A DNA stretch of 64,000 nucleotides from Cupriavidus sp. P-10 (lineage in GTDB: Bacteria > Pseudomonadota > Gammaproteobacteria > Burkholderiales > Burkholderiaceae), in assembly GCF_003402535.2 (NCBI RefSeq), contig NZ_AP025171.1, positions 558,001 to 622,000 of the forward strand, written 5' to 3'. Both the position numbers and the translations under genes were made by a program. Below, piece by piece: positions 16,374-34,327 of the stretch (positions are counted from its first letter, which is position 1; every line of letters begins with the position of its first letter). The notes under the pieces were generated by a model. That model had not been told where the DNA came from, searched no databases, and saw only the letters and a program-made list of their open reading frames with translations.

Positions 16374-16943
16374 CTACCAGTTTCCTTCCGTTTTTCCGTC
16401 TTGTAATCGTCTTTGTGGTCCGGACTGCTGCGATGGCGGCCGGGTGTCAGGGCAGGCTTGTTGTTGGCAGGGTGTTCTCCTCTTGTGGATCCTTGTGGGC
16501 TGGGATGCCTAGCAAAAATGCTGCGACAGCCGCTTTTATGTTTTATATATGGAACATCAAACAACATAAGAAACGTTGAGCAAAATATAGCCGCGAGTTT
16601 CCTAAAGCTGTGAGGAGGGTTATCCCTAGTGCGGCACGGCGACGACGCGCCGGACAGCCGCCGGCTGCACCCGCGCAGGGCCGGGCGTGCGCACGGGCGG
16701 TGCATCGGCACTACGTGGCGCGCGCCACCGGCAGTCCGGTCGCCCAGGCGTCGTGCCGCACCGGCAAAGGCGCTGCGCCCGATGCCATAAGCAAGAGCCT
16801 GGCGCGCCGTGCAAACCGGTGCGTGCACCAGCCCGGCGCGTTGACGTTTTCGTGTCGGACAGGCCTATCGTTTACCCTGATCCCGTTTCCTGAAGCGCAC
16901 GCCTATGCTTTAAAAGTTTTATTCGCAAACCTAAGTTTTATAT
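16374..16943. other. Divergent intergenic region, porin / alpha-beta hydrolase
   Basis: A 570-base region with no supported gene; several open frames cross it but none resembles a protein. The ends are AT-rich, and each holds one copy of the 17-base sequence GTTTTATATATGGAACA (16540-16556 and 16935-16951). The GC-rich middle (about 16620-16840) has no feature I can interpret. A TTGACG at 16841-16846 could be a -35 element for the hydrolase, but no good -10 lies at the right distance. Confidence 0.55.
16540..16556. promoter_or_regulatory. IclR-type operator candidate upstream of porin
   Basis: GTTTTATATATGGAACA lies within an imperfect 20-bp palindrome, ATGTTTTATATATGGAACAT (16 of 20 positions symmetric). 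It is 167 bases upstream of the porin start. The same 17 bases recur at 16935, and related palindromes lie at 17972 and 34218. Confidence 0.6.
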
Positions 16944-16951
16944 ATGGAACA
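16935..16951. promoter_or_regulatory. IclR-type operator candidate over the hydrolase start codon
   Basis: An exact copy of the 17-mer at 16540. It includes the hydrolase ATG at 16944-16946, so a protein bound here would block transcription start or early elongation. Confidence 0.55.
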
Positions 16952-17828
16952 AAATCAACCCCCCATTCCTCCGCAGCCGGATCGGCAGCTACTGGAGGCC
17001 CTGAGCAGCGGGTTTGCGGAACGCGTGGTGACCGTCGATGGCGGCGCGCAGGTGGCGTACCGCAGTGGCGGAACCAGCGGGCCCGCCATCGTGCTGCTGC
17101 ATGGCATCAGCTCCGGTGCGGCCTCGTGGCTGCCTTGCGCCAGCCTGCTGGCCGCGCAGGCGCGCGTGATCGCCTGGGACGCGCCGGGCTACGGCAATTC
17201 GACGCCGCTGGCGCAGCAGCGCCCCATGGCGTCCGACTACGCGCAACGGCTGGACGGCATGCTGCAGGCGCTGGCGATACAGCCCACCCTGATCGTCGGC
17301 CATTCGCTCGGCGCGCTGATGGCCGCGGCCTATGCCGCCAACGCGCGCAACCTGCCGGCGCGGCTGTTGCTGCTGAGCGTGGCCCAGGGCTACGGGGCGG
17401 CGGGCAAGGAAGCGCAGGCGCAGCAGGTGGCCCAGCAGCGGCTGGCGGCGCTGGACACGCTCGGCGTGGAAGGGCTGGCGCAACGCGGGCCGTCCCGGCT
17501 GCTGAGCGAGCTGGCCGATGCCGGCGCGCACGCGTGGGTGCGCTGGAACATGCAGCGGCTCGACCCGGACGGCTATCGCCAGGCGGTGGCGATGTTGTGC
17601 GGCGACGATATCGACCGTTATCTGTCGCGCCGTCCGGCGTCGCTGCCCATACGCATTGCCTGCGGCAGCCGCGACGTGGTGACCACCCCGCTGGCCTGCG
17701 GCACGCTGGCCGAACGCTTCGACCTGCCGCTGGCGCTGATCCCCGACGCCGGCCATGCCTGCTACATCGAGCAGGCCGCCGCGACCGCGCGGCTGATCCG
17801 CTCGGCGCTGCCCCAGGGCACCGCCTGA
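16944..17828 (+). CDS. Alpha/beta-fold hydrolase
   Basis: A protein of 294 residues. The catalytic triad is visible: nucleophile S121 in GHSLGA, D244 in CGSRDVV and H271 in DAGHACY. An oxyanion HG lies at LLHGIS (residues 51-56). No signal peptide, so it is cytoplasmic. The size and the WDAPGYGNS motif match ring-cleavage-product hydrolases and related carboxyl- or thioester hydrolases, but the substrate is unknown. ATG 16944 has no recognisable ribosome site and lies inside an operator-like repeat; the next possible Met is far inside the protein, so the start is probably right and translation may be leaderless or weak. It is divergent from the porin-Bug genes and 240 bp upstream of the Rieske operon. 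Confidence 0.88.
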   Translation: MEQNQPPIPPQPDRQLLEALSSGFAERVVTVDGGAQVAYRSGGTSGPAIVLLHGISSGAASWLPCASLLAAQARVIAWDAPGYGNSTPLAQQRPMASDYAQRLDGMLQALAIQPTLIVGHSLGALMAAAYAANARNLPARLLLLSVAQGYGAAGKEAQAQQVAQQRLAALDTLGVEGLAQRGPSRLLSELADAGAHAWVRWNMQRLDPDGYRQAVAMLCGDDIDRYLSRRPASLPIRIACGSRDVVTTPLACGTLAERFDLPLALIPDAGHACYIEQAAATARLIRSALPQGTA

Positions 17829-17952
17829 TCCTTTCCGGCGCCGCCACCCGCGCGGCGCCGCTTCCCTGGCGCGCCGCTTGCGCCGCCTGATCTGAATTTT
17901 CGGGTTTACCCCAGTCAATTTTTACGGTTGCGTTGTCTATAGTCGTACCTGT

Positions 17953-17989
17953 GTTCAATATCTAAACCAGTGTTTCATTAGTAAAACAC
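17953..17989. promoter_or_regulatory. Operator region of the Rieske operon (two adjacent palindromes)
   Basis: GTTTCATTAGTAAAAC (17972-17987), with outer extension GTG...CAC (17970-17989), differs at one base from the reverse complement of the site at 34218-34233. A weaker relative, GTTCAATATCTAAAC, lies at 17953-17967. A possible promoter (TTGTCT 17933-17938, 17-base spacer, CAATAT 17956-17961) would place the transcript start next to the palindrome. The likely ligand is the IclR regulator encoded at 20848-21714; this is inference. Confidence 0.6.
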
Positions 17990-18068
17990 GACGGACGCAA
18001 AGAGCAGGTCGCATCCGGACGGCGTCGGAACACGGTCCCCCAAGCTGCAAGACATGGAGCAAAGCGCA

Positions 18069-18374
18069 ATGGAAAGCCTCTCGTACAACCCGAACCTGGT
18101 GCCCTGGGAGCGTCCGGCGCCGAACAACGTCGCAGGCAAGGGCCATATCGAACAACCCGGCAAGGTCGCCAACATCGTCTGGCAGACCCGCGCCGCCGCC
18201 GCGACCGCCTACGAGAACGCGCTGGGCGACGCCATCGAAGCCGCCTTCGAAGGCGGTGCCCAGAACCCGCAGGACATCGTGCGCGCGTTCAACGCCGCCG
18301 GCTTCCTGGGCGTCGACGGCCAGCCCTGGACCGAAGAGCGCTTCCTCTCCGAAATGCGCCGCCTGGGCGCCTGA
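18069..18374 (+). CDS. Small protein with recombinase-like helix-turn-helix, first gene of the Rieske operon
   Basis: A protein of 101 residues from ATG 18069, which has GGAG nine bases upstream; ATG 18054, with no ribosome site, would add five residues. The first half (LVPWERPAPNNVAGKGHIEQ) is Pro-rich. The second half, QDIVRAFNAAGFLGVDGQPW then TEERFLSEMRRLGA, looks like the short helix-turn-helix of the DNA-binding part of serine recombinases, with no catalytic domain. It precedes the Rieske oxygenase gene by 34 bp. I recall proteins of this kind next to ring-hydroxylating oxygenases, but no function is known to me; it may be a DNA-binding accessory or an oxygenase partner. Confidence 0.75.
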   Translation: MESLSYNPNLVPWERPAPNNVAGKGHIEQPGKVANIVWQTRAAAATAYENALGDAIEAAFEGGAQNPQDIVRAFNAAGFLGVDGQPWTEERFLSEMRRLGA

Positions 18375-18408
18375 ACCACGCCAGAACCGCGTCCCTAGCG
18401 AGAACAAG

Positions 18409-19470
18409 ATGGAATCGAACAAGCAAGCCCGCGCCGAAGCCCGCCTGAACACCGGCCTGCGCAACTACTGGTACCCGGTCGCCGCCTCGTGGGCGGTGAG
18501 CCATGCCCCGATCGGCATCACCCGCCTGAGCCAGAACATCGTGCTGTGGCGCGACGGCGCCGGCCAGGTCCACGCGCTGGAAGACCGCTGCCCGCACCGC
18601 GGCGCGCGCCTGTCGATGGGCTGGAACCTGGGCGACCGCGTCGCCTGCTGGTACCACGGCGTGGAAGTCGGCGGCGACGGCCAGGTCAAGAGCGTGCCGG
18701 CGGTGGAAAGCTGCCCGCTGGAAGGCCGCACTTGCGTGCGCAGCTACCCGGTGCAGGAAAAGGCCGGCGCGATCTTTTTGTGGTTCGGCGACCAGGCTCC
18801 GCAAGGCGAAGGCAGCCCCGACGAGCTGCGCCTGCCGGAAGAACTGGTCAGCGAGGAACACAGCAACTTCCTGTGCGTGGCGCACTGGGACTGCAACTAC
18901 CGCTACGCCATCGACAACGTGATGGACCCGATGCACGGTGCCTACCTGCACGCGGTGTCGCACTCGATGGCCTCGGGCGAGAAGTCGGCAGTGATGCAGA
19001 TCCGCGAGACCGAGCACGGCCTGGTGTTCGAGAAGACCGGCCAGCGCGGCGTCAACTTCGACTGGGTGGAATTCGGCGAGACCGGCACGCTGTGGCTGCG
19101 CCTGGCGATCCCGTACCGCGCCAAGGTCGGCCCCGGCGGCCCGTTCGGCATCGTCGGCATGGCCACGCCGGTGGATGAAGACCACTGCATGGTGTTCTTC
19201 TGGCGTACCCGCCACGTGCAGGGCTGGGAGCGCGACGTATGGCGCTTCCTGTATCGCAACCGCCTGGAGCAGCTGCACTGGGACGTGCTGGAACAGGACC
19301 GCGTGGTGCTGGAAATGATGGCCCCCAACGCGCGCGACCACGAAATGCTGTACCAGCACGACGCAGGCATCACGCGCGTGCGCCGTCTGCTGAAGCGCCG
19401 CGCCGAGCAGGAAGTCGCCGACGAGCCGGTGGCGATGCTGAAGCCCGCCGGAGCCGCCAGCCATGCCTGA
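18409..19470 (+). CDS. Rieske-type aromatic ring-hydroxylating oxygenase, alpha subunit
   Basis: A protein of 353 residues. The Rieske [2Fe-2S] ligands are C61, H63, C80 and H83 (CPHRG...ACWYHG). The mononuclear iron site is in IDNVMDPMHGAYLHAVSH, with N170/D173 and H176/H181. The size and the absence of a beta-subunit gene fit single-component vanillate demethylase/phthalate-type oxygenases (VanA, Pobam, DdmC class). These take electrons from a reductase like the FNR/2Fe-2S protein encoded at 27675-28631. It would hydroxylate or O-demethylate an aromatic acid in the cytoplasm. Its end overlaps the next gene by 8 bp, indicating translational coupling. Confidence 0.93.
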   Translation: MESNKQARAEARLNTGLRNYWYPVAASWAVSHAPIGITRLSQNIVLWRDGAGQVHALEDRCPHRGARLSMGWNLGDRVACWYHGVEVGGDGQVKSVPAVESCPLEGRTCVRSYPVQEKAGAIFLWFGDQAPQGEGSPDELRLPEELVSEEHSNFLCVAHWDCNYRYAIDNVMDPMHGAYLHAVSHSMASGEKSAVMQIRETEHGLVFEKTGQRGVNFDWVEFGETGTLWLRLAIPYRAKVGPGGPFGIVGMATPVDEDHCMVFFWRTRHVQGWERDVWRFLYRNRLEQLHWDVLEQDRVVLEMMAPNARDHEMLYQHDAGITRVRRLLKRRAEQEVADEPVAMLKPAGAASHA

Positions 19471-20236
19471 AGCCCTCACCAACAACACGCTGCTGGCCGG
19501 CCGCAAGGTGCTGGTCACCGGTGCCGCGCGCGGCCTCGGGCTGGCCTTCGTCAAGTCGCTGGCCGAAGCCGGCGCCAGCGTGGCGATGGCCGACATCCTG
19601 GCCGAGCGCCTGCAGCAGGAAGCCGACGCACTGCGCGCCCGCGGCCTGAAGGTGGTGCCGGTGGTGCTGGACCTGGCGGATCCCGCCTCGGTGCAGGCTT
19701 GCGCCGAGGCCGCGGTCAAGGCCCTGGGCGGCCTTGACGGCCTGGTCAACAACGCCGCCGTGACCGACTCGGGCGGCCGCGATGCCAGCGCCATCGACAT
19801 CGCCACCTGGGATCGCGTGATGAACGTCAACGTGCGCGGCACCTGGCTGATGACCGCTGCCTGCCTGCCGGCGCTGCGCGCCAGTGGCCGTGGCGCGGTG
19901 GTCAACCTGGCGTCGGACACGCCGCTGTGGGGCGCGCCCAACCTGCTGGCCTATGTGGCGAGCAAGAGCGCCATCATCGGCATGACCCGCTCGCTGGCCC
20001 GTGAAATGGGCAAGGACCAGATCACCGTCAACGCGGTGGCCCCGGGCCTGACGCTGGTGGAAGCCACCGAATACGTGCCGCAGCATCGCCACGACCTGTA
20101 CCGCGAGCAGCGCGCGATCCCGCGCGAGCAACTGCCCGACGACGTCTGCGGCGCGGTGCTGTTCGCCCTCTCCGACCTTGCCCGTTTCGTGACCGGCCAG
20201 ACGCTGGCGGTCAACGGCGGCTTTGTCATGCATTGA
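19463..20236 (+). CDS. Short-chain dehydrogenase/reductase
   Basis: A protein of 257 residues whose ATG lies inside the end of the Rieske gene (8-bp overlap). It is a classical SDR: TGAARGLG near residue 19, VNNAAV, N-L-A-S for the catalytic Ser, YVASK for Tyr/Lys, and VNAVAPGLT. The residues after the second strand (MADILAE) indicate NAD use. Within this operon it could oxidise a cis-diol or hydroxylated intermediate formed by the Rieske enzyme; that is inference. A three-fold 9-bp repeat begins at its stop codon. Confidence 0.9.
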   Translation: MPEALTNNTLLAGRKVLVTGAARGLGLAFVKSLAEAGASVAMADILAERLQQEADALRARGLKVVPVVLDLADPASVQACAEAAVKALGGLDGLVNNAAVTDSGGRDASAIDIATWDRVMNVNVRGTWLMTAACLPALRASGRGAVVNLASDTPLWGAPNLLAYVASKSAIIGMTRSLAREMGKDQITVNAVAPGLTLVEATEYVPQHRHDLYREQRAIPREQLPDDVCGAVLFALSDLARFVTGQTLAVNGGFVMH

Positions 20237-20279: not shown

Positions 20280-20816
20280 ATGAGCGATCTTTCCCAACCA
20301 GCCAACATCAAGCGTTCGTGGGACCAGCCGGACGGCGCCTCGTTCGACCAGTGGATGGAAAGCCGCGTCGCGCGCTTCTCCACGCGCAAGTACGACTGGG
20401 ACGCGCTGAAGTTCCAGGCCGACTACGACCCCAAGTACCGCCGCGCGCAGATGCGCTACCTGGGCACCGGCGGCACCGGCGTGGCCGCGGACACCAACAC
20501 CGTGCCGTCGGAGCACTTCACCTTCTCCACCATGATCATCCCGGCCGGCCATGAAGGCCCGTCGCATATCCACACCGACGTGGAAGAGGTGTTCTTCGTC
20601 ATGCGCGGCAAGATCAAGCTGATCCTGGAAAAGGATGGCGAGCGCTTCGAGACCATCCTGACCGACCGCGACCTGGTCTCGGTGCCGCCGGGCGTGTATC
20701 GCGAGGAAATCAACATCGGCGAGGAAGACGCGCTGATGTGCGTGATGCTCGGTGCCAAGAAGCCGATCACGCCGACGTACCCGCCCGAGCACCCGCTGAC
20801 GAAGATCAAGCGGTGA
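20280..20816 (+). CDS. Cupin-domain protein
   Basis: A protein of 178 residues from ATG 20280, with AGGAA upstream. A single beta-barrel cupin spans about residues 75-160. The motif PSHIHTDVEEVFFVMRGKIK holds the metal-binding His-x-His and Glu, and VSVPPGVYREEINIGEED is the second motif. The N-terminal 70 residues (DQWMESRVARFSTRKYDWDA) are helical and not part of the cupin. The family includes small-molecule dioxygenases, isomerases and non-catalytic binding proteins; nothing visible decides between them. It lies between the SDR and IclR genes of the Rieske operon. Confidence 0.88.
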   Translation: MSDLSQPANIKRSWDQPDGASFDQWMESRVARFSTRKYDWDALKFQADYDPKYRRAQMRYLGTGGTGVAADTNTVPSEHFTFSTMIIPAGHEGPSHIHTDVEEVFFVMRGKIKLILEKDGERFETILTDRDLVSVPPGVYREEINIGEEDALMCVMLGAKKPITPTYPPEHPLTKIKR

Positions 20817-20847: not shown

Positions 20848-21714
20848 ATGAGCACCAACGCCTTCCCGACGACGCCAGCCGCCAACGAGACCCAGGACAA
20901 GTACATCGTCCCGGGCCTGGAGCGTGGGCTGCGCCTGCTCGGCGAGTTCAGCAGCAAGGACCGCACCATGTCGGCCGCCGAACTGGCGCGCCGCCTCAAG
21001 GTGCCGCGCTCCACCGTGTTCCGCCTGCTGGCCACGCTGGAAATGCTGGGCTTCGTCGAGCGCGCCGATGGCGGCCGCGATTTCCGGCTGGGCATGGCGG
21101 TGCTGCGGCTGGGGTTTGAGTACCTGGCGTCGCTGGAGTTGACCGAGCTGGGCCGCCCGCTGCTGGAGCGGCTGCGCGACGAGATCGGCTACCCGACCAA
21201 CCTGGTGGTGCGCGACGGGCGTTCGATCGTCTATGTGGCCAAGGCGGTGTCACCGCGGCCGTTCGCCAGCTCGGTCAATGTCGGCACGCGTCTGCCGGCG
21301 CATGCCACGGTGCTGGGGCGCGTGCTACTGGAAGACCTGTCGCTGGCGGAATTGCGCGCGCTGTATCCGGAGGCGCAGCTGGAAGTGTTCTCCGACAGCA
21401 CGCCGCGCACGGTCGATGCGCTCTTTGCCATCGTCCAGCGCGACCGCGAGCGTGGCTACGTGCTGCAGGAAGGCTTTTTCGAATCGAGCATCTCGACCAT
21501 TGCCGCGCCGGTGCGCGACCGCACCGGCAAGGTGGTGGCGGCGCTGGGGGCCACCATCCCCGCCGCGCATATCGATCCGGCGCATTTCGATCCGGATCAA
21601 CTGGACGCGATGGTGGAGAAGGTGAGGAACACCGCGGGCGAGCTGTCGCGCCTGCTCGACTACCGGCCGTCGCTGCACAGCGCCGGCAAGGTGGTGAATC
21701 TGTATCGGGAGTGA
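20848..21714 (+). CDS. IclR-family transcriptional regulator (paralogue 1)
   Basis: A protein of 288 residues. The N-terminal winged helix-turn-helix is SAAELARRLKVPRSTVFRLL, and the C-terminal effector domain has GRSIVYVAKAV, GTRLPAHATVLGRVLLED and STIAAPVRDRTGKVVAALGA. It is about 85 percent identical by eye (some 36 differences over about 250 residues) to the regulator at 39897-40724, with the recognition helix unchanged. It lies inside the operon it most likely controls. IclR proteins bind short palindromes as dimers of dimers and respond to aromatic or keto acids; the palindromes at 17953-17989 are the natural target. Confidence 0.92.
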   Translation: MSTNAFPTTPAANETQDKYIVPGLERGLRLLGEFSSKDRTMSAAELARRLKVPRSTVFRLLATLEMLGFVERADGGRDFRLGMAVLRLGFEYLASLELTELGRPLLERLRDEIGYPTNLVVRDGRSIVYVAKAVSPRPFASSVNVGTRLPAHATVLGRVLLEDLSLAELRALYPEAQLEVFSDSTPRTVDALFAIVQRDRERGYVLQEGFFESSISTIAAPVRDRTGKVVAALGATIPAAHIDPAHFDPDQLDAMVEKVRNTAGELSRLLDYRPSLHSAGKVVNLYRE

Positions 21715-21719: not shown

Positions 21720-22523
21720 ATGTCCATGATTGAACTCGGCGGCAAGGTTGCCGTCGTTACCGGCGGGTCCTCCGGCATCGGGCTGGCGACCGTCGAACTG
21801 CTGCTCGAAGCGGGCGCCGCCGTCGCCCTGTGCGGCCGCGACGAAGCCCGCCTGCGCGGCGCCGAAGCACAGCTGCGCGAGAAGTTCGCCGGCTGCCGGC
21901 TCCATGCCGCGACCTGCGACGTGCTCAAGCCGGAACAGGTCGCCGCCTTTGCCGCCGACGTGCAGGCCACGCTGGGCAACGTTGACATGCTGGTCAACAA
22001 CGCCGGCCAGGGCCGCGTGTCCACCTTCGCCAATACCGAGGACGCGGCCTGGATGGACGAACTGCAGCTCAAGTTCTTCTCGGTGATCCACCCGACGCGC
22101 GCCTTCCTGCCGCAGCTGGAGAAGTCGGGCCAGGGCGCGATCGTCTGCGTCAACTCGCTGCTGGCGCAGCAGCCGGAGCCGCACATGGTGGCGACCTCCG
22201 CCGCGCGCGCCGGCGTGCTCAACCTGGTGCGCTCGATGGCCACCGAATTCGCGCCCAAGGGTGTCCGTGTCAACGGCATCCTGATCGGGCTGGTCGAGTC
22301 GGGCCAGTGGCGCCGCCGCTTCGAGGCGCGTGCCGAAGAAGACCGCCACCTGGACTGGGCCGCGTGGACCGCGCGCCTGGCCCAGCAGAAACATATTCCC
22401 CTTGGCCGCCTGGGCCTGCCTGTCGAGGCAGCCCGCGCCATCCTGTTCCTTGCCTCGCCGTTGTCTTCGTACACCACGGGCAGCCATATCGATATCTCCG
22501 GAGGACACTCCCGTCATGCCTAA
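21720..22523 (+). CDS. SDR-fold protein with altered catalytic residues
   Basis: A protein of 267 residues from ATG 21720, with GTGAGG just upstream; GTG 21711 is an alternative. The SDR nucleotide fold is clear (TGGSSGIGLA at residues 14-23, VNNAGQG at 92-98). The active-site segment, however, reads ATSAARAGVL instead of YxASKAG. At the Tyr and Lys positions there are T159 and R163, while the Ser (S146 in VNSLLA) is kept. It is therefore either non-redox or uses other residues; this group is known among SDR relatives, but its reaction is not established. Its end overlaps the ThDP enzyme start by 8 bp. Confidence 0.85.
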   Translation: MSMIELGGKVAVVTGGSSGIGLATVELLLEAGAAVALCGRDEARLRGAEAQLREKFAGCRLHAATCDVLKPEQVAAFAADVQATLGNVDMLVNNAGQGRVSTFANTEDAAWMDELQLKFFSVIHPTRAFLPQLEKSGQGAIVCVNSLLAQQPEPHMVATSAARAGVLNLVRSMATEFAPKGVRVNGILIGLVESGQWRRRFEARAEEDRHLDWAAWTARLAQQKHIPLGRLGLPVEAARAILFLASPLSSYTTGSHIDISGGHSRHA

Positions 22524-24225
22524 TCAACAACAGTACGAACAACAGCAGGTCACCGTTGGCTGCGCCATCACGGCGTTCCTCGAGCAGTGCGGGGTCAAGG
22601 CCGCGTTCGGCGTGATCTCGATCCACAACATGCCGATCCTGGATGCCATGGGCGAGCGCGGCAAGATCCGCTTCGTGCCGGCGCGCGGCGAAGCGGGCGG
22701 CACCAACATGGCTGACGCCTACGCCCGTACCACTGGCGGCCTGGGTGTGTGCCTGACCAGCACCGGCACCGCCGCGGGCAATGCCGCCGGCGCGATGGTT
22801 GAAGCGCTGACCGCCGGCACGCCGATGCTGCATATCACCGGCCAGATCGAGACGCCGTACCTGGACCAGAGCCTGGCCTACATCCACGAAGCGCCGGACC
22901 AGCTCACCATGCTGAAGGCCGTGTCGAAGGCCGCCTTCCGCATCCGCAGCGCCGACACCGCGATCAGCACCATCAAGCTGGCCGTGCAGACCGCGCTGAC
23001 GGCGCCGACCGGCCCGGTCAGCGTCGAGATCCCCATCGACATCCAGGCCGCGCTGATCGACCTGCCGGCCGACCTGCAGCCGCTGCCGGTGCCCAGGCAC
23101 GTGCCGTCGGCGCACGCGCTGGACGCGCTGGCCGAGCGCCTGGCGAATGCCAGGCGCCCGCTGCTGTGGCTGGGCGGCGGTGCGCGCCACGCCAGCAAGC
23201 AAGTGCAACGCCTGCTGGACCTGGGCTTCGGCGTGGTCACCAGCACGCAGGGCCGCGGCATCGTGGCGGAAGATGATCCGCGCTCGCTGGGCGCCTACAA
23301 CCTGCACAAGCCGGTCGAGGCCTTCTACCAGACCTGCGACGCGATGCTGGTGGTGGGTTCGCGCCTGCGCGGCAATGAAACCCTGAAGTACGAACTGAAG
23401 CTGCCGCGCCCGCTGCTGCGCATCGACGCCGACCCGGCCGCCGAAGGCCGCTGCTACCTGAGCGACTACTTTGTCAGCGGCGACGCCGCGCTGGCGCTGG
23501 ACGCCCTGGCAGACCGGCTCGAAAAGCGCATGAAGGTCGATCCGGCCTTCGCCGCCGACCTGCGCCGCGCGCACGACGTTGCCGTCAACGGCCTGGTCGA
23601 TGGCCTGGGCCCGTACTCGGCACTGGTGCAGGCACTCCAGGGCGCGGTGGGCCGCAACTTCAACTGGGTGCGCGACGTGACCGTGTCGAACAGCACCTGG
23701 GGCAACCGCGAACTGCGCATCTTCGACTCGCGTGCCGGCGTGCACGCGCTGGGCGGCGGCATCGGCCAGGGCCTGGCCATGGGCATCGGCGCCGCGATCG
23801 GCGCGGCGGCCACTGCCTCGGGCAAGAAGACTTTCACGCTTGCCGGCGACGGCGGCTTCATCCTGAACCTGGGTGAGCTGGCTACCGCGGTGCAGGAACG
23901 CGCCGACATGGTCATCGTGCTGATGAACGACAAGGGCTACGGCGTGATCAAGAACATCCAGGACGCGCAGTACGGCGGCCGCCGCCACTACGTGGACCTG
24001 CATACGCCCGACTACGCCGCGCTGGCCAAGTCGCTGTCGCTGCGCCATGCGCGCGTCAGCAGCCTGGCCGAAGTGGGCGCCGCGCTGGAGCAGGCCACGG
24101 TCGAGCCCGGCCCGTTCCTGCTGGAAATCGACATGCTGTCGATCGGCAGCTTCAAGACCGTGTTTGCCGGCCCGCCGGTGAACAAGGAAACCCCGGCTTC
24201 GGAACAGGCCACCGTCAGCGCCTGA
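22516..24225 (+). CDS. Thiamine-diphosphate-dependent enzyme (acetolactate synthase / benzoylformate decarboxylase family)
   Basis: A protein of 569 residues with three domains: the PYR domain with catalytic E59 in VPARGEAGGTNMADAYAR, the central nucleotide-like domain (LLWLGGGARHASKQVQ), and the PP domain with GDG at 444-446 and NDKGYG for Mg and diphosphate binding. The long match across all domains is certain, but the substrate is not: the family decarboxylates or ligates 2-keto acids or acyl-CoAs. In this operon, with an aldehyde dehydrogenase downstream, a 2-keto acid decarboxylase giving an aldehyde is plausible. ATG 22516 follows GGAGGA and overlaps the previous gene. Confidence 0.92.
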   Translation: MPNQQQYEQQQVTVGCAITAFLEQCGVKAAFGVISIHNMPILDAMGERGKIRFVPARGEAGGTNMADAYARTTGGLGVCLTSTGTAAGNAAGAMVEALTAGTPMLHITGQIETPYLDQSLAYIHEAPDQLTMLKAVSKAAFRIRSADTAISTIKLAVQTALTAPTGPVSVEIPIDIQAALIDLPADLQPLPVPRHVPSAHALDALAERLANARRPLLWLGGGARHASKQVQRLLDLGFGVVTSTQGRGIVAEDDPRSLGAYNLHKPVEAFYQTCDAMLVVGSRLRGNETLKYELKLPRPLLRIDADPAAEGRCYLSDYFVSGDAALALDALADRLEKRMKVDPAFAADLRRAHDVAVNGLVDGLGPYSALVQALQGAVGRNFNWVRDVTVSNSTWGNRELRIFDSRAGVHALGGGIGQGLAMGIGAAIGAAATASGKKTFTLAGDGGFILNLGELATAVQERADMVIVLMNDKGYGVIKNIQDAQYGGRRHYVDLHTPDYAALAKSLSLRHARVSSLAEVGAALEQATVEPGPFLLEIDMLSIGSFKTVFAGPPVNKETPASEQATVSA

Positions 24226-24238: not shown

Positions 24239-25039
24239 ATGCTGCATGTGTCCATGATTGGGTGCGGTGCGATTGGCCGGGGCGTGCTTGAGCTGCTCAA
24301 GAGCGATCCCGACGTCGCCTTCGACGTGGTGATCGTGCCCGAGAGCGCGATGGACGAGGCCCGCGGCGCGCTCTCCGCGCTGGCGCCCAGCGCCCGCGTG
24401 GCCACGCACCTGGACGACCAGCGCCCCGACCTGCTGGTCGAGTGCGCCGGCCACCATGCGCTGGAAGAGCACATCGTGCCGGCGCTGGAGCGCGGCATTC
24501 CGTGCATGGTGGTGTCGGTGGGCGCGCTTTCCGAGCCCGGCATGGCCGAGCGGCTGGAAGCGGCCGCGCGCCGTGGCGGCACGCAGGTGCAACTGCTCTC
24601 CGGCGCGATCGGTGCGATCGATGCGCTGGCCGCGGCTCGCGTCGGCGGGCTGGATGAAGTGATCTACACCGGCCGCAAGCCGGCGCGTGCGTGGATCGGC
24701 ACGCCGGCCGAGAAGCTGTTCGACCTGGATGCGCTGACCGAGACGACGGTGATCTTCGAAGGCACGGCGCGCGATGCCGCACGCCTGTACCCGAAGAACG
24801 CCAACGTCGCCGCCACGGTGTCGCTGGCCGGCCTCGGGCTGGACCGCACCTCGGTGAAGCTGCTGGCCGATCCGCATGCGGTGGAGAACGTGCATCACGT
24901 GGAAGCGCGTGGGGCATTCGGAGGCTTCGAACTGACCATGCGCGGCAAGCCGCTCGCCGCCAACCCGAAGACTTCCGCGCTGACGGTGTTCAGCGTGGTG
25001 CGCGCGCTGGGCAACCGGGCGCACGCCGTATCGATTTAA
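24239..25039 (+). CDS. nadX: Aspartate dehydrogenase (NAD(P)-dependent, NadX-like)
   Basis: A protein of 266 residues, the normal length. The N-terminal Rossmann motif is MIGCGAIGRGV. The catalytic-domain stretches LLSGAIGAIDALAAARVGGL, IYTGRKPARAW, FEGTARDAARLYPKNANVAA and NPKTSALTVFSVVRAL are those of L-aspartate dehydrogenases; homologous enzymes from Ralstonia/Cupriavidus have been studied and interconvert aspartate and oxaloacetate with ammonia. The ATG follows GAGGAGAGCAG and lies 13 bp after the ThDP enzyme gene, so it is co-transcribed. Its presence in an aromatic operon suggests that an amino group or a 4-carbon acid is handled here, or that the real substrate differs from aspartate. 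Confidence 0.88.
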   Translation: MLHVSMIGCGAIGRGVLELLKSDPDVAFDVVIVPESAMDEARGALSALAPSARVATHLDDQRPDLLVECAGHHALEEHIVPALERGIPCMVVSVGALSEPGMAERLEAAARRGGTQVQLLSGAIGAIDALAAARVGGLDEVIYTGRKPARAWIGTPAEKLFDLDALTETTVIFEGTARDAARLYPKNANVAATVSLAGLGLDRTSVKLLADPHAVENVHHVEARGAFGGFELTMRGKPLAANPKTSALTVFSVVRALGNRAHAVSI

Positions 25040-25084: not shown

Positions 25085-25169
25085 TCCCGCCGCAGCATGG
25101 GTGAGGGCATCGCAGCGAAATAACGCAGTAAGGCCGGCAGCGGCAACGACAGACACAGCAGGCAACGAC

Positions 25170-26648
25170 ATGAACCCACAAGAAGTACTCCCCATCTGCA
25201 TCGCAGGCGAATGGCGCCTGGGGACCGGCGACCGCTACGGCACGCGCTACCCAGCCACCGGCGAAGTCGTCGCGGAACTCAACGCCGCCAGCCTGGCTGA
25301 TGTGGAAGAGGCCGTGCAGGGCGCCCACCACGCCTTCCTCACCAGCGGCTGGGCCCAGCGCAAGCCGCACGAGCGCGCCGCCGTGCTGTACCGTGTGGCC
25401 GAACTGATCCGCGCACAAGCCGAACCGCTGGCACAACGCCAGCGCCTGGACAACGGCAAGCCGATCAGCGAAACGCGCGCGCTGGTCGCCAGCGCCGCCG
25501 GCACCTTCCAGTTCTTTGCCGCCGCCTGCGAAACGCTGGAAGAAACCATCACGCCGCAGCGTGGCGACTGCCTGACCATGAGCGTCTACGAGCCGATGGG
25601 CGTGGTCGCGGCGATCACGCCGTGGAACTCGCCGATCGCCAGCGAAGCGCAGAAGATGGCGCCCGCGCTCGCCGCGGGCAACGCCGTGGTGGTCAAGCCC
25701 GCCGAAGTCACGCCGCTGATGGCGCTGGAACTGGCGCGCATCTGTGAAGAAGCCGGCGTGCCCAAAGGCCTGATCAGCGTGCTGCCGGGCAAGGGTTCGG
25801 TGATCGGTGATGCCATCACCAAGCATCCGCTGGTGCGCCGGGTGTCGTTCACCGGCGGCACCACCACCGGCAAGCACATCGCGCATATCGCCGCCGACAA
25901 GATGATGCCGGTGTCGCTGGAGCTGGGCGGCAAGTCGCCGACCATGGTGTTCGACGACGCCGACCTCGACCACGCGGTCAACGGCGTGCTGTATGGCATC
26001 TTCAGTTCGTCAGGCGAGTCGTGCATCGCCGGCTCGCGCCTGTTCGTGGCGCGTTCGCAGTACGAGCCGTTCATCGACCGCCTCGCCGCAGGCGCCGCGC
26101 ACCTGCGCGTGGGCGATCCCGCCGACGAACGCACCCAGATGGGTCCGCTGATCACCGATCGCCACCGCGACAGCATCGAATCGTACGTCGCGACTGGCGT
26201 GCACGAAGGCGGACAACTGCGCACCGGCGGCCTGCGCCCCGACGTGGCAGGCCTGCCCAACGGCTACTTCTACACGCCCACCATCATCGAAGGCCTGGAT
26301 AACAACGCCCGCATCTGCCAGGAAGAAATCTTCGGGCCGGTGCTGGTGGCGATCCCGTTCGACGACGAGGATGACCTGATCGAACAGGCCAACGACAGCG
26401 TCTACGCGCTGGCCGCCGGCATCTGGACACGCGACTACAAGCGCGCGTGGCGCGTGGCACGTGCGGTGCAGGCGGGCAATGTGTGGATCAACACCTACAA
26501 GCAGTTCTCGATCGCGACGCCGTTCGGCGGCTGGCGCGACAGCGGCCTGGGCCGCGAGAAGGGACGGCTGGGCATCCTGCAGTACATGGAGCAGAAAAGC
26601 GTGTACTGGGGCCTGAACGAACAACCGCTGCCGTGGGCCAACCACTGA
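25170..26648 (+). CDS. Aldehyde dehydrogenase
   Basis: A protein of 492 residues. Family motifs are present in order: ITPWNSPIASEAQKMAPALA with the catalytic Asn, VVKPAEVTPL, FTGGTTTGKHI for NAD binding, VSLELGGKSP with the general-base Glu, SSSGESCIAGSRLFV with the catalytic Cys, and EEIFGPVLVAIPFDDEDDLI. It oxidises an aldehyde to an acid with NAD(P) in the cytoplasm. It is separated from aspartate dehydrogenase by 130 bp that contain a hairpin repeat. It could act on the aldehyde made by the ThDP enzyme or on a ring-cleavage semialdehyde. Confidence 0.94.
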   Translation: MNPQEVLPICIAGEWRLGTGDRYGTRYPATGEVVAELNAASLADVEEAVQGAHHAFLTSGWAQRKPHERAAVLYRVAELIRAQAEPLAQRQRLDNGKPISETRALVASAAGTFQFFAAACETLEETITPQRGDCLTMSVYEPMGVVAAITPWNSPIASEAQKMAPALAAGNAVVVKPAEVTPLMALELARICEEAGVPKGLISVLPGKGSVIGDAITKHPLVRRVSFTGGTTTGKHIAHIAADKMMPVSLELGGKSPTMVFDDADLDHAVNGVLYGIFSSSGESCIAGSRLFVARSQYEPFIDRLAAGAAHLRVGDPADERTQMGPLITDRHRDSIESYVATGVHEGGQLRTGGLRPDVAGLPNGYFYTPTIIEGLDNNARICQEEIFGPVLVAIPFDDEDDLIEQANDSVYALAAGIWTRDYKRAWRVARAVQAGNVWINTYKQFSIATPFGGWRDSGLGREKGRLGILQYMEQKSVYWGLNEQPLPWANH

Positions 26649-26671: not shown

Positions 26672-27646
26672 ATGATCAAGGTATTGGGAATCGACGAGAT
26701 CGTCTACGGCGCGGATGACTTTGACGCCTGCCGTGGCTTTTTCTCGGACTGGGGCCTGGCCATCAAGCGCGATGACGCGCAGGGCCTGGACTTTGAAACG
26801 CTGAACGGTTGCCGCGTGCTGGTGCGCCGCATCGAGGATCCGTCGCTGCCGCCCGCGATCGAGGCCGGCCCGACGCTGCGCGAAGTGGTGTGGGGCGTCG
26901 AGTCGCAGGCCTCGCTGGACCATCTCGCTGACGCGATCGCCGATGCGCCGGGCTTTGTAAAGCAAGGCGAGGGCGCCACGCTGCGCATCGGCTGCACCGA
27001 CCCGAACGGCCTGGCAGTGCGCTTCCAGGTCACGCGCAAGCATGAGGTGCAGGTCGACTGCGCGCTGATGAATACGTGGAACGACAAGCCGCGCATGAAC
27101 CAGCGCAGCCCGATCTACGACCACGCCACGCCGATCGAAGTGGGCCACGTGGTGTTCTTCGTGAAAGATGTCAAGGCCACCGAGCAGTTCTATGTGGAGA
27201 AGTTCGGCTTCGTGCCGTCGGACCGCTACCCGGACCGCGGCGCGTTCCTGCGCTGCACGGCCGATGGCGGCCACCACGACCTGTTCCTGCTGCAGCTGCC
27301 GGAGCCGAAGAGCGGCCTGAACCATGTCGCCTTCACCGTGCGCGATATCCACGAAGTCTTTGGCGGCGGCATGCATGTGTCGCGCAAGGGCTGGGACACG
27401 CAGCTCGGTCCGGGCCGGCATCCGATCTCGTCGGCGTACTTCTGGTACTTCAAGAATCCGGCCGGCGGCCTGATCGAGTACTACGCCGATGAAGACCAGC
27501 TCGACGAGCACTGGGAGCCGCGCGCCTTCGAGCCGGGCCCGACCATGTTCGCCGAATGGGCGATCGAGGGCGGCATCGACGGCAACACCCGCCGCCAGAA
27601 GAACGCGGGCGGCCCGGCGGGCAAGTTCCTGACCGAGAAGCGGTAA
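26672..27646 (+). CDS. Two-domain VOC protein, extradiol ring-cleavage dioxygenase-like
   Basis: A protein of 324 residues with two vicinal-oxygen-chelate domains. The C-terminal domain carries the Fe(II) triad pattern: H159 in VGHVVFFV, H218 in LNHVAFTV and E269 in GLIEYYAD. The extradiol dioxygenase fingerprint is present at G248-R-H250 ... YFKNP-A-G ... E269, with Trp258 where Leu/Ile/Val/Met/Phe is usual. The ribosome site GGAGAGAAGC lies directly upstream. The most likely role is meta-cleavage of a catechol-like product of the upstream oxygenase. The long C-terminal tail (PAGKFLTEKR end) is also found in related catechol dioxygenases. Confidence 0.85.
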   Translation: MIKVLGIDEIVYGADDFDACRGFFSDWGLAIKRDDAQGLDFETLNGCRVLVRRIEDPSLPPAIEAGPTLREVVWGVESQASLDHLADAIADAPGFVKQGEGATLRIGCTDPNGLAVRFQVTRKHEVQVDCALMNTWNDKPRMNQRSPIYDHATPIEVGHVVFFVKDVKATEQFYVEKFGFVPSDRYPDRGAFLRCTADGGHHDLFLLQLPEPKSGLNHVAFTVRDIHEVFGGGMHVSRKGWDTQLGPGRHPISSAYFWYFKNPAGGLIEYYADEDQLDEHWEPRAFEPGPTMFAEWAIEGGIDGNTRRQKNAGGPAGKFLTEKR

Positions 27647-27674: not shown

Positions 27675-28631
27675 ATGAGTGCCCACCAGTCCCTGACCCT
27701 GCGCGTCCAGGCCATGCGTTTTGAAGCGCGCGGCGTGGTCAGCATCGAACTGCAAGATCCCGAAGGGAAGACCCTGCCCGAGTACAGCCCGGGCGCCCAT
27801 ATCGACCTGCACCTGGGCAACGGCCTGGTGCGCAGCTACTCGCTGTGCGGCGCGCCGGAAGCGCGCAACCGCTACACCGTGGGCGTGCTGCTGGACCGCG
27901 GCAGCCGCGGCGGCTCGCGCTACGTGCACGAGCAGCTGCGCGTGGGTGCCACGCTGACGGTGGGCGCGCCGCGCAACAACTTCGAGCTGGACGAGAGCGC
28001 CGCGCATACCGTGCTGGTTGCCGGTGGCATCGGCGTCACGCCGATCGTCTGCATGGCGCGCCGGCTGGCGGAGCTGGGCAAGTCGTTCACGCTGATCTAC
28101 TGCGCGCGTTCGCGTGCCGAGGCGGCATTCGTCGAACAGCTGTCGGCTTACGGCGACGCGGTGCGCTTCCACTTCGACGATGAAACGGGCGCACCGCCGG
28201 ACCTGAAGGCGATGCTGGGCGGACAGGACGAGCAGACGCATTTCTACTGCTGCGGCCCGGGCCCGATGCTGAATGCGTTCGAGGCCGCGTGCGAGGCGCA
28301 TGCCTACCCGAACGTCCATATCGAACGCTTCGCCGCCGACCCGTCGACCGAGGCGGTGCAGGAAGGCGAATACGTGGTGCAGCTGTCGCGCACCGGCAAT
28401 CTCGTCAAGGTGCCGTCGGGCAAGTCGCTGCTCGATGCGCTGCTCGATTCCGGCGTGGAAGTCGAATACAGCTGCCGCGAAGGCGTGTGCGGATCGTGCG
28501 AGACCGCCGTGCTGGAAGGCTGCCCCGACCACCGCGACAGCGTGCTGAGCAACAGCGAGCGCGCCAGCAACAAGACCATGATGGTGTGCGTGTCCGGGTG
28601 CAAGGGCAGCAAGCTGGTGCTGGATTTGTAA
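27675..28631 (+). CDS. Ferredoxin-NAD(P) reductase-type oxidoreductase (VanB-like) for the Rieske oxygenase
   Basis: A protein of 318 residues with three domains in the phthalate dioxygenase reductase order: flavin domain with RSYSL (53-57), NAD domain with GGIGVTP (117-123) and CCGPGPML (192-199), and a C-terminal plant-type [2Fe-2S] domain with C267, C272, C275 and C305. This is the electron-transfer partner expected for a single-component Rieske oxygenase such as the one at 18409-19470. The ATG is 29 bp after the VOC gene, and AGAAGGAAGC provides the ribosome site. Confidence 0.94.
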   Translation: MSAHQSLTLRVQAMRFEARGVVSIELQDPEGKTLPEYSPGAHIDLHLGNGLVRSYSLCGAPEARNRYTVGVLLDRGSRGGSRYVHEQLRVGATLTVGAPRNNFELDESAAHTVLVAGGIGVTPIVCMARRLAELGKSFTLIYCARSRAEAAFVEQLSAYGDAVRFHFDDETGAPPDLKAMLGGQDEQTHFYCCGPGPMLNAFEAACEAHAYPNVHIERFAADPSTEAVQEGEYVVQLSRTGNLVKVPSGKSLLDALLDSGVEVEYSCREGVCGSCETAVLEGCPDHRDSVLSNSERASNKTMMVCVSGCKGSKLVLDL

Positions 28632-28706: not shown

Positions 28707-30185
28707 GTGTTCACACAGAGACAAGACGCAGCGTCCCCCGGCGCACCGGTGGCCGCCACCGCAGGTATCGTGACCACGGCCGACAGTGCCGGCCAGGGCG
28801 CCGCCACGGCCACCGCCCGCAGCGGCCCGCCCGGTGGCGCCATCACGCGCGGCAATATCGTCGCCCGCATCGAACGCATGCCGGGCAACGCCATGCATAT
28901 CCGCGCCCGGCTGCTGATCGGCCTGGCCACCTTCTTCGATGGCTTCGACGTCATCGCCATTGCCGCCACGCTGCCGCTGCTGATCGCGCAGTGGTCGCTG
29001 ACGCCGGTACAGATCGGCGTCCTGATCGCGGCGCCGTCGGTCGGCCAGCTGGTCGGGGCGCTGCTGTTCCCGGGGCTGGCCGAGCGCTTTGGCCGGTTGC
29101 GCTCGATCGGCTGGAGCGCGGGCATCATCGGCCTGATGAGCATTGCCTGCGGCCTGGCGCCGTCATTCGAGATCTTCCTGCTGCTGCGCATCGTGCAGGG
29201 CCTGGGCCTTGGCGGCGAACTGCCGGTCGCGGCCACCTATATCAACGAAGTCACGCGCGCGCATGGCCGCGGGCGCTTCGTGCTGCTGTACGAGGTGGTG
29301 TTCCCGATCGGCCTGATGGTGTCCAACGGCGTCGGCGCCTGGCTGGTGCCGCACTACGGCTGGGAGGTGATGTACTTCATCGGCGGCGTGCCGCTGGTGC
29401 TGTTCTTCATCCTGAAGCGCGTCATCCCCGAATCGCCGCGCTGGCTGGCCGAGAAGGGCCGCCTGGAAGAAGCGGATGCCGCCCTGCGCGCGTTCGAGGC
29501 CCGCGCCAGGGGCCCGCTGCCGCCGCCGCAGAATGCCAGCGCCTACGACCGCATGACCCAGCATCCGCGCCGCCGCGTGCGCGACCTGGTCGGCAAGGCC
29601 TACCGGGGGCGCACGATTGCGGTCTGGATGCTGTGGGCGACCTGCGGTTTTATCCAGTATGGCCTGTCGACGTGGCTGCCCACGGTCTACAAGACGGTCT
29701 ACCACGCGCCGCTGCAACTGGCGCTGAACCTGGCCGCGGGCGCCTCGGTGCTGGGTGTGGTCGGCTCGCTGGTATGCGCGATGATCGTCGACAAGGTCGG
29801 CCGCAAGCCGGTGATCAACGTGTCGTTCCTGCTGTGCGCGCTGTCGCTGGTGCTGGCGGGCGTGTTCCACGCTTCGTCGGTATACGTGGTGGCGACCTTC
29901 TGTGCGCTGGCGATGGGCTTCCTGGCCAGCGGTTTCATCACCGCCTACGTCTATACGCCCGAGCTGTACCCGACCAGCGTGCGCGCGATGGGCTGTGGGC
30001 TTGGCGGCGCCTGGCTGAAGCTGGCCGCCATCTTCGCGCCGACACTGATCGCCGGCACCATCGGCAACGGCACGCTCAATGTGGCGTTCTTCGCGCTGGC
30101 CGTGGTCCCCGCGCTGGCGGCCATCACCGTTCACTTCTTCGGCATCGAGACCAAGGGGCAGGTGCTGGAGGAACTGGAGGTCTGA
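28707..30185 (+). CDS. MFS transporter (aromatic acid/sugar porter type)
   Basis: A protein of 492 residues from GTG 28707 with GAGAAG upstream. The first 45 residues are Ala/Gly-rich and cytoplasmic. The conserved family start (ITRGNIVARIERMPGNAMHI) and LLIGLATFFDGFDVIAIAAT lead into twelve predicted transmembrane helices. MFS loop motifs GLAERFGRLRSIGW and LAEKGRLEEADAAL, and the charge in FFDGFD used by aromatic acid:proton symporters, are visible. It is last in the Rieske operon and probably imports its substrate across the inner membrane. An intrinsic terminator follows 33 bp after the stop. Confidence 0.92.
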   Translation: MFTQRQDAASPGAPVAATAGIVTTADSAGQGAATATARSGPPGGAITRGNIVARIERMPGNAMHIRARLLIGLATFFDGFDVIAIAATLPLLIAQWSLTPVQIGVLIAAPSVGQLVGALLFPGLAERFGRLRSIGWSAGIIGLMSIACGLAPSFEIFLLLRIVQGLGLGGELPVAATYINEVTRAHGRGRFVLLYEVVFPIGLMVSNGVGAWLVPHYGWEVMYFIGGVPLVLFFILKRVIPESPRWLAEKGRLEEADAALRAFEARARGPLPPPQNASAYDRMTQHPRRRVRDLVGKAYRGRTIAVWMLWATCGFIQYGLSTWLPTVYKTVYHAPLQLALNLAAGASVLGVVGSLVCAMIVDKVGRKPVINVSFLLCALSLVLAGVFHASSVYVVATFCALAMGFLASGFITAYVYTPELYPTSVRAMGCGLGGAWLKLAAIFAPTLIAGTIGNGTLNVAFFALAVVPALAAITVHFFGIETKGQVLEELEV

Positions 30186-32443: not shown

Positions 32444-32549
32444 GTCTGGGGTCTCCTCCGTGTTTGTGCCTGACGTTGGAACCCAGTCTATCGAGCTGGC
32501 CTATCATTAGAAAAGCGAACATATTTGAGGTTCTTCGTAAGAGTTTTTG
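32444..32549. promoter_or_regulatory. Divergent promoter region, dioxygenase operon / LysR gene
   Basis: A 106-base region. The AT-rich part (CTATCATTAGAAAAGCGAAC, 32502-32521) is where a LysR-type T-N11-A site would be expected between the divergent start codons. No precise site can be defined from one copy. Confidence 0.5.
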
Positions 32550-33449: not shown

Positions 33450-33470
33450 GGCGCGCCGGGCGCCATTTTC
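33450..33470 (+). terminator. Probable terminator of the LysR gene
   Basis: GGCGC (33450-33454), a GCCGG loop and GCGCC (33460-33464) are followed by ATTTTC. The stem is short. It lies directly after the LysR stop, between two convergent genes. Confidence 0.45.
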
Positions 33471-33474
33471 TTGT

Positions 33475-33990
33475 TCAGGCCTGGGCGCGCAACAGCTTGC
33501 GCAGCCCCAGATACACCGCCTCCCTTTCCTCCGGCGACAGCATCCGGATCACTTCCGCCTGCCCCTTGCGTGCCAGCGGCATCACCTGGTCGTGCAGCGC
33601 CGAGCCGGCTTCGGTGATCGCGCAGATCAGCTTCTTGCGCGGGGTGTTGCCTGCCGAAGTCAGCCGGACCAGCCCGCGGTCTTCCAGCAGCCGCAGGGTG
33701 CGGCTGACCAGTGCCTTGTCCGAGGTCGATTGCGTGACCAGCTCGGAGAAGGGCAATTCCCTGGCATGCGCCAGCAGCGCCAGGATGCGCCACTCCGGCA
33801 CGGTCAGGCCGAACTGCTCGGCGTAGGGCTTGGTGACCGTGCTGCGCAGCGCGGTCACCAGCTGGCTCAGCATCGTGGTCAGGAAATTGTCGACGGTCAG
33901 GCCATTGCCGGCCTCGTCGAGGTCGGTCCAGGGGCTGGCGGTCAGGTCTGGCGCGGGCTGGCCCTGGGCGGGCGCGGCGTCACGGGGCAT
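33475..33990 (-). CDS. MarR-family transcriptional regulator
   Basis: A protein of 171 residues from ATG 33990 with AGAGGA upstream. The winged helix-turn-helix is LTVPEWRILALLAHARELPF, then SELVTQSTSDKALVSRTLRL, with the wing LTSAGNTPRKKLICAITEAG. It is divergent from the Bug / molybdenum hydroxylase operon and 337 bp from it, so it may co-regulate that operon with the IclR protein encoded at its end. Confidence 0.9.
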   Translation of the reverse strand: MPRDAAPAQGQPAPDLTASPWTDLDEAGNGLTVDNFLTTMLSQLVTALRSTVTKPYAEQFGLTVPEWRILALLAHARELPFSELVTQSTSDKALVSRTLRLLEDRGLVRLTSAGNTPRKKLICAITEAGSALHDQVMPLARKGQAEVIRMLSPEEREAVYLGLRKLLRAQA

Positions 33991-34327
33991 GCGGTCCTCT
34001 TGTCTGGTGTCTGCCGGCCGGGCTTGTTCGGGCTGGTGAGCGGGCCGGTGGGCGGGCCAGATTGTCTCATAGCCGGCAGCGAGACCGGCGCAAATGTCTC
34101 GTCATTACCACCCGGAAAAATCTTCTATACAGACATCAAAAGTCAATTGGTGATTTCAGTAAGTTGAGTTGTCAATATTGAGGGCCTACAGTGGATGCGT
34201 TCCTGTTGTGAGCATGAGTTTTACTAATAAAACAACCGCAGCGTTGTAACCCGAGCCAACCCTGTTTTTCGCGGTGCGCACAACAGCCCACTCCAACGCC
34301 GCGAATGCGCCCCCACAGGAGCTGTTG
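33991..34327. other. Divergent promoter region, MarR gene / molybdenum hydroxylase operon
   Basis: A 337-base region without a gene. The AT-rich right half contains a 10-base palindrome, TCAATATTGA (34172-34181), which is a candidate MarR site, and the IclR-type palindrome at 34218-34233. The ribosome site AGGAGCTGTTG of the Bug gene is at its right end. Confidence 0.55.
34218..34233. promoter_or_regulatory. IclR-type operator of the molybdenum hydroxylase operon
   Basis: GTTTTACTAATAAAAC has perfect 6-bp arms (GTTTTA / TAAAAC). Its reverse complement matches the site at 17972-17987 at 15 of 16 bases. It lies 95 bases upstream of the Bug gene start. Confidence 0.65.

Follow-up and report, generated by a model that had tools for sequence, protein, structure and literature searches.

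The 64,000-nucleotide stretch of Cupriavidus sp. P-10 DNA analysed here (contig NZ_AP025171.1, positions 558,001 to 622,000; hereafter the window) is part of one contig of a 9.08-Mb genome and carries genes for a porin, an alpha/beta hydrolase, a Rieske oxygenase and a molybdenum hydroxylase, together with two paralogous regulators of the IclR family, called IclR1 and IclR2 below. We describe a 16-bp palindromic motif, GTTYYATNNNTRRAAC, which recurs at the four promoters of these genes and is a candidate for the shared operator of one small catabolic regulon. In a homologue search, the closest named matches of the window regulator were from Cupriavidus, with up to 97% identity. Searches of the gene set against Pfam, NCBIfam and solved structures returned enzyme classes only, and the operon extents, and hence any autoregulation, are predicted from gene order. 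The genes are as follows.

14191..15192, minus strand: TctC/Bug periplasmic receptor, behind the porin gene (Pfam PF03401, E 5e-55)
15279..16373, minus strand: general porin (Pfam PF13609, E 5e-55)
16944..17828, plus strand: alpha/beta hydrolase (Pfam PF12697, E 6e-19)
18069..18374, plus strand: 101-amino-acid protein with a recombinase-like helix-turn-helix domain, opening the Rieske operon (PF20552, E 2.7e-25; no match in the NCBIfam search)
18409..19470, plus strand: Rieske oxygenase, VanA type (PF00355, PF19112; top-scoring solved relative in the structure search, dicamba O-demethylase)
19463..20236, plus strand: short-chain dehydrogenase (profile search)
20280..20816, plus strand: cupin (PF07883)
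20848..21714, plus strand: IclR1, the regulator within the Rieske gene set (PF09339 and PF01614, above cut-off)
21720..22523, plus strand: short-chain dehydrogenase (profile search)
22519..24225, plus strand: thiamine-pyrophosphate enzyme (PF02775/PF02776, frame from 22330; NF005470 above cut-off)
24239..25039, plus strand: aspartate dehydrogenase (PF01958; NF009827 above cut-off)
25161..26648, plus strand: aldehyde dehydrogenase (PF00171)
26687..27646, plus strand: glyoxalase/extradiol-dioxygenase superfamily protein (PF00903, frame from 26447)
27675..28631, plus strand: ferredoxin reductase, the likely partner of the Rieske oxygenase (PF00111, PF00175)
28707..30185, plus strand: MFS transporter (nearest NCBIfam model aromatic acid/H+ symport, below cut-off)
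33475-33990: MarR protein, adjoining the molybdenum promoter
34328..35317, plus strand: TctC/Bug periplasmic receptor (PF03401, E 9e-65)
35340..37688, plus strand: molybdenum hydroxylase large subunit (PF20256, PF02738, PF01315)
37690..38547, plus strand: molybdenum hydroxylase flavin adenine dinucleotide (FAD) subunit (PF00941)
38557..39033, plus strand: molybdenum hydroxylase 2Fe-2S subunit (PF01799)
38978..39781, plus strand: CoxG-like protein (listed open frame, start probably near 39017; PF06240)
39897..40724, plus strand: IclR2, the paralogous regulator closing the molybdenum operon (PF09339, PF01614)

The putative promoter and operator elements in front of these genes are listed next, site 1 being the upstream and site 2 the downstream site of each pair.

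16540..16555, minus strand: site 2, porin promoter, GTTCCATATATAAAAC
16559..16575, minus strand: site 1 (weak), porin promoter, with a GTTTC box 19 bp upstream of site 2
16584..16589, minus strand: -10-like hexamer TATATT, porin promoter (conserved spacing; no consensus-scan hit)
16904..16909, plus strand: -10-like hexamer TATGCT, hydrolase promoter (TATAGT in several relatives)
16915..16931, plus strand: site 1, hydrolase promoter, AGTTTTATTCGCAAACC
16935..16950, plus strand: site 2, hydrolase promoter, GTTTTATATATGGAAC, including the hydrolase ATG (16944)
17938..17943, plus strand: -10-like hexamer TATAGT, Rieske operon (present in 25/25 distinct upstreams)
17952..17968, plus strand: site 1, Rieske operon, TGTTCAATATCTAAACC
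17972..17987, plus strand: site 2, Rieske operon, GTTTCATTAGTAAAAC
34164..34169, plus strand: -35-like hexamer TTGAGT, molybdenum operon, 17 bp from the -10-like hexamer
34187..34192, plus strand: -10-like hexamer TACAGT, molybdenum operon, variable among relatives
34198..34214, plus strand: site 1, molybdenum operon, CGTTCCTGTTGTGAGCA
34218..34233, minus strand: site 2, molybdenum operon, GTTTTATTAGTAAAAC

Tandem architecture, specificity and conservation of the motif

All four strong sites were found where a sequence-only reading of this stretch had put them, and the match of 15 out of 16 bases that it reported between two of them was confirmed, GTTTCATTAGTAAAAC occurring exactly at 17972-17987 and the site at 34218-34233 agreeing with it at 15 of 16 positions on the minus strand. 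Since both are near-palindromes, their orientation carries little meaning. Sites of this type were matched three times in the window, against 0.05 expected from shuffled windows. The second form, GTTTTATATATGGAACA, lies exactly at 16540 and 16935, the two sites being the same 17-mer, and three window matches of its type with at most three mismatches were obtained, against 0.00 expected from shuffled windows. A further match of this type at 17952-17968, directly upstream of 17972, had been absent from the earlier list. The start codon of the hydrolase (16944) lies inside the putative operator, so that conservation of the operator constrains the first codons. By eye, no Shine-Dalgarno sequence was evident at this start.

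At all four promoters, each strong 16-bp site is preceded by a second, weaker one. The sequence-only reading had taken each site for a whole operator; the sites stand, but each appears to be the downstream half of a tandem operator. Among loci whose best site had 0-1 mismatch, a GTTY box preceded the strong site by exactly 19 bp in 8/8 porin, 15/17 hydrolase, 25/25 Rieske and 12/12 molybdenum distinct upstreams (L072 and L115, the same stretch, being counted once), and the left boxes were thus 19 bp apart in 60 of the 62 distinct upstreams of the four promoters, as well as in 3/3 sequences of iclR2's own promoter. The two deviating hydrolase upstreams, L046 and L047, have the GTTY box at 20 instead of 19. 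For the porin, 8 rows were kept in this first count (14 of 22 held the site of the neighbouring promoter), and a rerun over every locus with a porin-side site, keeping all rows, found the box at offset 19 in 22/22; for the hydrolase, 17 of the 23 extracted rows were kept, six porin-side sites with short upstreams being left out. A site matrix averaged over the four promoters peaked at 19, and 0 of 2000 permutations, run with at most five sequences per promoter, came near the observed score.

The genome search with the joint pattern of the four sites, which the sequence-only reading had recommended, found GTTYYATNNNTRRAAC exactly at five places in the genome, four of them being 16540, 16935, 17972 and 34218. 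Counted as strand-hits, seven exact matches were observed, against 0.33 expected from a first-order model of the whole genome. At one mismatch, 29 hits per strand were obtained against 12 and 18 for a reversed control pattern, so that only the exact class is informative. Sites of the 34218 type with at most two mismatches were found at three genome places, two of them in the window, and sites of the 16540 type with at most three mismatches also at three, all within the cluster.

Among related loci, 45 of the 46 that carry the regulator contain GTTYYATNNNTRRAAC with at most one mismatch, the remaining one, L048, starting 951 bp upstream of its regulator; no such match was found in L077, the single distant decoy locus. 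Mean identity between species at the four promoters was 72-97% in the sites and 34-59% in the flanks, and at iclR2's own promoter, for which only three sequences were compared, 79-92% and 69-70%. Most sites in Cupriavidus and named Ralstonia loci lie at window-type promoters or at the Rieske promoter, and those of nine Oxalobacteraceae loci lie 1.6-3.0 kb upstream of the first recognised gene, with two loci also having sites at <0.1 kb. The sequence-only reading had put the agreement between the two site forms at about 11 of 16 positions; its coordinates were right, but the figure understates the relation, as one form can stand in for the other at orthologous promoters. GTTCCATATATAAAAC is found at the Rieske slot in C. 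gilardii and C. cauae, the exact GTTTCATTAGTAAAAC at the porin slot in genome G001, and GTTTTATATATGGAAC at the molybdenum slot in genome G036. Judged from these sequences, the two forms are one operator that has been exchanged at orthologous promoters between species, and on account of this exchange we reject a separate regulator for each form.

Regulators and their co-occurrence with the motif

The identical recognition helices claimed for IclR1 (20848) and IclR2 (39897) were borne out in the segment VPRSTVFRLLATLE, and the claimed identity of about 85% was revised to 83% (222/268 residues), with 53/60 identical in the DNA-binding region and 157/185 in the remainder. This helix was absent from the 18 other paralogues of the same genome that were aligned (18 of 39 further matches), and a third IclR gene nearby (41170-42012) had 98 of 264 residues aligned identically. 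Both regulators are IclR family members by PF09339 (58.9 and 56.1 bits for IclR1 and IclR2, cut-off 22) and PF01614 (113.1 and 120.7 bits, cut-off 24). Their best NCBIfam match was TIGR02431 (PcaR/PcaU/PobR), at 176.4 and 184.9 bits, below the cut-off of 284.75 for that subfamily.

The regulator (E <=1e-90) was found in 48 of 60 Cupriavidus genomes, and the ATATAT form of the motif, GTTYYATATATRRAAC, with at most one mismatch, in 48/48 genomes with it versus 2/12 without (Fisher P 9e-10, kin genomes treated as independent). Of the 51 exact copies of this form listed, which cover genomes up to G040, 47 lie within 15 kb of a regulator gene, and exact copies of the 34218 type were present in 34/48 genomes with the regulator and 0/12 without. 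In g24, a sister genus taken to be Ralstonia since its operator is identical to the one in named Ralstonia loci, 15/16 genomes have a single regulator and the exact operator, the 16th having neither. A single regulator was matched in the Cupriavidus genome G016, whose porin and Rieske promoters both bear motif-like sites. One specificity therefore suffices, and the pair of regulators that the sequence-only reading had built into the system is unneeded. IclR1 and IclR2 probably read the same sites, and cross-action of the two paralogues is likely, as their recognition helices are identical and the sites interchangeable.

Two regulator copies were found in 44 of the 48 Cupriavidus regulator genomes. 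The molybdenum large subunit (E 1e-250) was found in 33 of the 60 genomes, all among the 48 with the regulator, and 13 of the 15 regulator genomes without a match to it have two regulators. In L070, L115 and L118, which have iclR2 but lack the molybdenum operon, an operator of this kind stands immediately before iclR2, and for G008, G028, G029, G031 and G037 the positions put one within ~200 bp of the second regulator, on its upstream side. In local alignment with the molybdenum promoter of the window, the promoter stretches of L115, L118 and L070 scored 42, 53 and 44, the null of random stretches drawn from the same loci having a 95% value of 21 and a maximum of 44. Several species would accordingly appear to keep one promoter-operator while the genes behind it differ, which fits a shared code. 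A tree of 54 rows set main-cluster and molybdenum-side regulators mostly apart, with many weak forks, and supports no firm date for the duplication.

Proposed repression and competing explanations

We propose, with a probability of roughly 0.77, that the cluster forms one small local catabolic regulon with four promoters, a shared composite operator and IclR1 and IclR2 as repressors. The promoters would be those of porin-TctC, the alpha/beta hydrolase, the Rieske operon (with IclR1 inside and the MFS gene at its end) and TctC-molybdenum hydroxylase-IclR2. Each composite operator would consist of a weaker site and the strong 16-bp GTTYYATNNNTRRAAC palindrome, their left boxes offset by 19 bp, and would lie downstream of a -10-like hexamer. 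IclR1 and IclR2, having the same recognition helix, would occupy it as a tetramer, two dimers sitting on the same DNA face, and block initiation, and release by a pathway compound would induce the uptake genes, the catabolic genes and both regulators together. The shared operator at the porin, hydrolase, Rieske and molybdenum promoters, already claimed from the sequence alone, is well supported by genome-wide specificity, promoter conservation, form exchange and regulator co-occurrence, features that, like the tandem spacing and the sites themselves, can be read directly from the sequences compared. Binding by the two proteins, their cross-action, repression rather than activation, and the inducer are what we infer from these features. 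That the regulon is real, and ordinary in kind, is very likely.

The layout of the promoters bears on the mode of action. Both sites lie downstream of the -10-like hexamer, which is TATATT in 8/8 porin upstreams and TATAGT, TATGCT or similar in hydrolase upstreams, and the gap from hexamer to box is 6-10 nt among the rows listed (search range 3-12 nt from the box). An operator close behind a -10-like hexamer fits repression, as a protein bound there blocks polymerase. That the IclR proteins are mainly activators, the downstream sites having a secondary role, is for this reason unlikely, even though the PcaR/PcaU/PobR subfamily, whose model is closest to both and whose members likewise regulate aromatic catabolism, includes activators, and no consensus-strength promoter was found.

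Several other observations weigh against the single repressed regulon. A sigma-70-type consensus scan at 9-of-12 gave no promoter in 16400-35000, so that the -10-like assignments are based on conservation, and at the molybdenum slot this hexamer varies among relatives (3-12 nt from the box examined). Operator status and repression are both deduced from sequence comparison, in related genomes throughout, so the counts represent non-independent events. The fifth exact match to GTTYYATNNNTRRAAC lies outside the window, on contig C1, between the genes of a GlpR-like regulator and an ABC-transporter ATPase. The one ATATAT-form match in G005 sits on a contig without a regulator match, and the 34218-type pattern at two mismatches occurs in 52/60 genomes, including 7/12 regulator-less ones, which marks it as too loose. 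Among the g24 genomes with the operator, 12/15 show one exact site and 3/15 two, which leaves the link between operons there mostly unproven. Finally, L046, L047 and L111 have iclR2 without the molybdenum operon and no upstream site at up to two mismatches, and direct autoregulation of IclR2 is thus not universal.

The cluster might instead hold two separate regulons, IclR1 controlling the porin, hydrolase and Rieske promoters and IclR2 only the molybdenum operon and its own gene; differing effector specificity, dosage or minor variation between the sites would separate the two. Each regulator gene does lie within its own gene set, the effector domains differ at 28/185 aligned positions, and IclR2 is retained in the 13 two-regulator genomes without a molybdenum-subunit match. 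This division is nevertheless improbable, as the recognition helices are identical and the sites at the molybdenum and Rieske slots are near-identical, with either form found at either slot across species, which leaves no clear separation by DNA. MarR proteins also bind AT-rich palindromes, and a marR gene flanks the molybdenum slot in many Cupriavidus loci; a different protein, for example the MarR protein encoded at 33475-33990, could then be the one that reads the operator. We consider such a reader very unlikely, because the operator tracks the IclR gene across both genera and because a search of the 16 g24 genomes (15 with the operator) at E 1e-15, run without a positive control genome, gave no MarR relative; moreover, the half-sites and the tandem spacing resemble the published IclR operators described in the main text of PMC8222616.

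A more elaborate arrangement, to which we give only a slim chance, would be mixed assemblies of IclR1 and IclR2 on one operator, with one protein preferring site 1 in its 17-bp frame and the other the 16-bp site 2, so that the regulon would open only with two different pathway compounds. This would explain the two copies in 44/48 genomes, including the 13 without a molybdenum-subunit match, and why, depending on the species, the same promoter-operator drives either iclR2 directly or the molybdenum operon and then iclR2. The three loci with iclR2 and no upstream operator lower its odds, and the single regulator of g24 on the same tandem operator would make mixed assemblies a later elaboration.

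Neighbouring observations, pathway and significance

A number of observations were made around the cluster and in relatives. The presence of a recombinase-like helix-turn-helix protein (18069-18374) at the head of a catabolic operon is without explanation. A TctC-TauD-LysR block at 30256-33449, between the MFS and MarR genes, is possibly a later insertion; in L031, which has no such block, MFS is followed by MarR. Between IclR2 and the third IclR gene, a TctC gene remnant at 40749-41084 retains part of its L076 counterpart (80% over 112 residues). In G016, a perfect palindrome, GTTTCATATATGAAAC, at 4118-4133 of L112 lies close to where an ABC-transporter and TctC gene set begins; the single regulator match in that genome is ~77 kb away, and this gene set is possibly a further regulon member there. 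A similar palindrome, GTTTTATTACTAAAAC, at C1:2374955-2374970 of G000 (L108), between GlpR-like and ABC ATPase genes and with the same sequence in G026, is probably the operator of another regulator. A wider regulon in this genome was considered and found unsupported, the sole other exact match more likely belonging to the GlpR-like/ABC ATPase genes that flank it.

The molybdenum enzyme is of the xanthine-oxidase type, with molybdenum cofactor, FAD and 2Fe-2S subunits all found (PF20256, PF02738, PF00941, PF01799, PF00111). Hydroxylases of this type take their oxygen from water and are not oxygenases, and the "two unrelated oxygenase systems" of the sequence-only reading do not hold. The core of the Rieske gene set is common to the named Ralstonia loci, and the molybdenum hydroxylase is, in these data, an optional Cupriavidus module. 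The pathway compound is probably aromatic. In quinoline breakdown, a molybdenum hydroxylase and then a Rieske enzyme act on one N-heteroaromatic. Lumichrome breakdown, as described in the main text of PMC12746152, follows the same order, and by analogy with these known pairings an N-heteroaromatic acid would be a fair guess for the substrate. The phthalates, methoxy- and heteroaromatic acids that the sequence-only reading had put forward for growth tests gained no support from these analyses. The Nocardioides lum operon of that study unites a xanthine-oxidase-type hydroxylase, a Rieske oxygenase, a thiamine enzyme and an extradiol dioxygenase in one pathway, as in the gene set here; its organism and gene set are different, the word "aspartate" is absent from the main text of that paper, and the hydroxylase is optional here.

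The operator itself has precedents. In 94 of 181 IclR groups, according to the main text of Suvorova and Gelfand 2021 (PMC8222616), sites come in tandem with centres 18-22 nt apart, an arrangement linked to tetramer binding; here the centres are 19 to 19.5 nt apart, within that range. Palindromic GTT...AAC half-sites and regulons of aromatic uptake and catabolism are common to both, and the hydrolase site at its ATG corresponds to a known peak of site centres close to start codons. The four main subgroups of group 1 in that text have sites of 17 or 18 bp (GKTYCRYW3-4RYGRAMC), whereas the strong site is 16 bp (GTT-10-AAC) at all four promoters, outside that group; by reading, the weak site seems to fit the 17-bp frame better. 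Ralstonia, Cupriavidus, Rieske and porin have no occurrence in its main text, the supplementary tables lying outside the search, and the regulator may be among the 181 groups. PheR of Sphingobium is, in the main text of PMC13273656, an IclR repressor that ties uptake to catabolism, as proposed here, with cooperative binding suggested over a 44-bp footprint; it differs in its core, GCAACG, and its compound, phenanthrene. PMC6449761 mentions IclR regulators as not studied there, and no description of the regulon was found in the open-licence literature searched, including by literal operator sequence.

What is new is the identity of the regulon, the near-invariant tandem operator and the retention of two regulators that appear interchangeable. 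A similarity first read by hand thus becomes a regulon that can be tested at exact operators, in a genus employed in aromatic degradation and in bioproduction, and its operator code allows the porin, hydrolase, Rieske and molybdenum genes to be assigned to one physiological response. The regulon narrows the substrate search for this catabolic cluster, and two apparently interchangeable repressors on a shared operator make a clean system in which to ask why regulators are retained after duplication.

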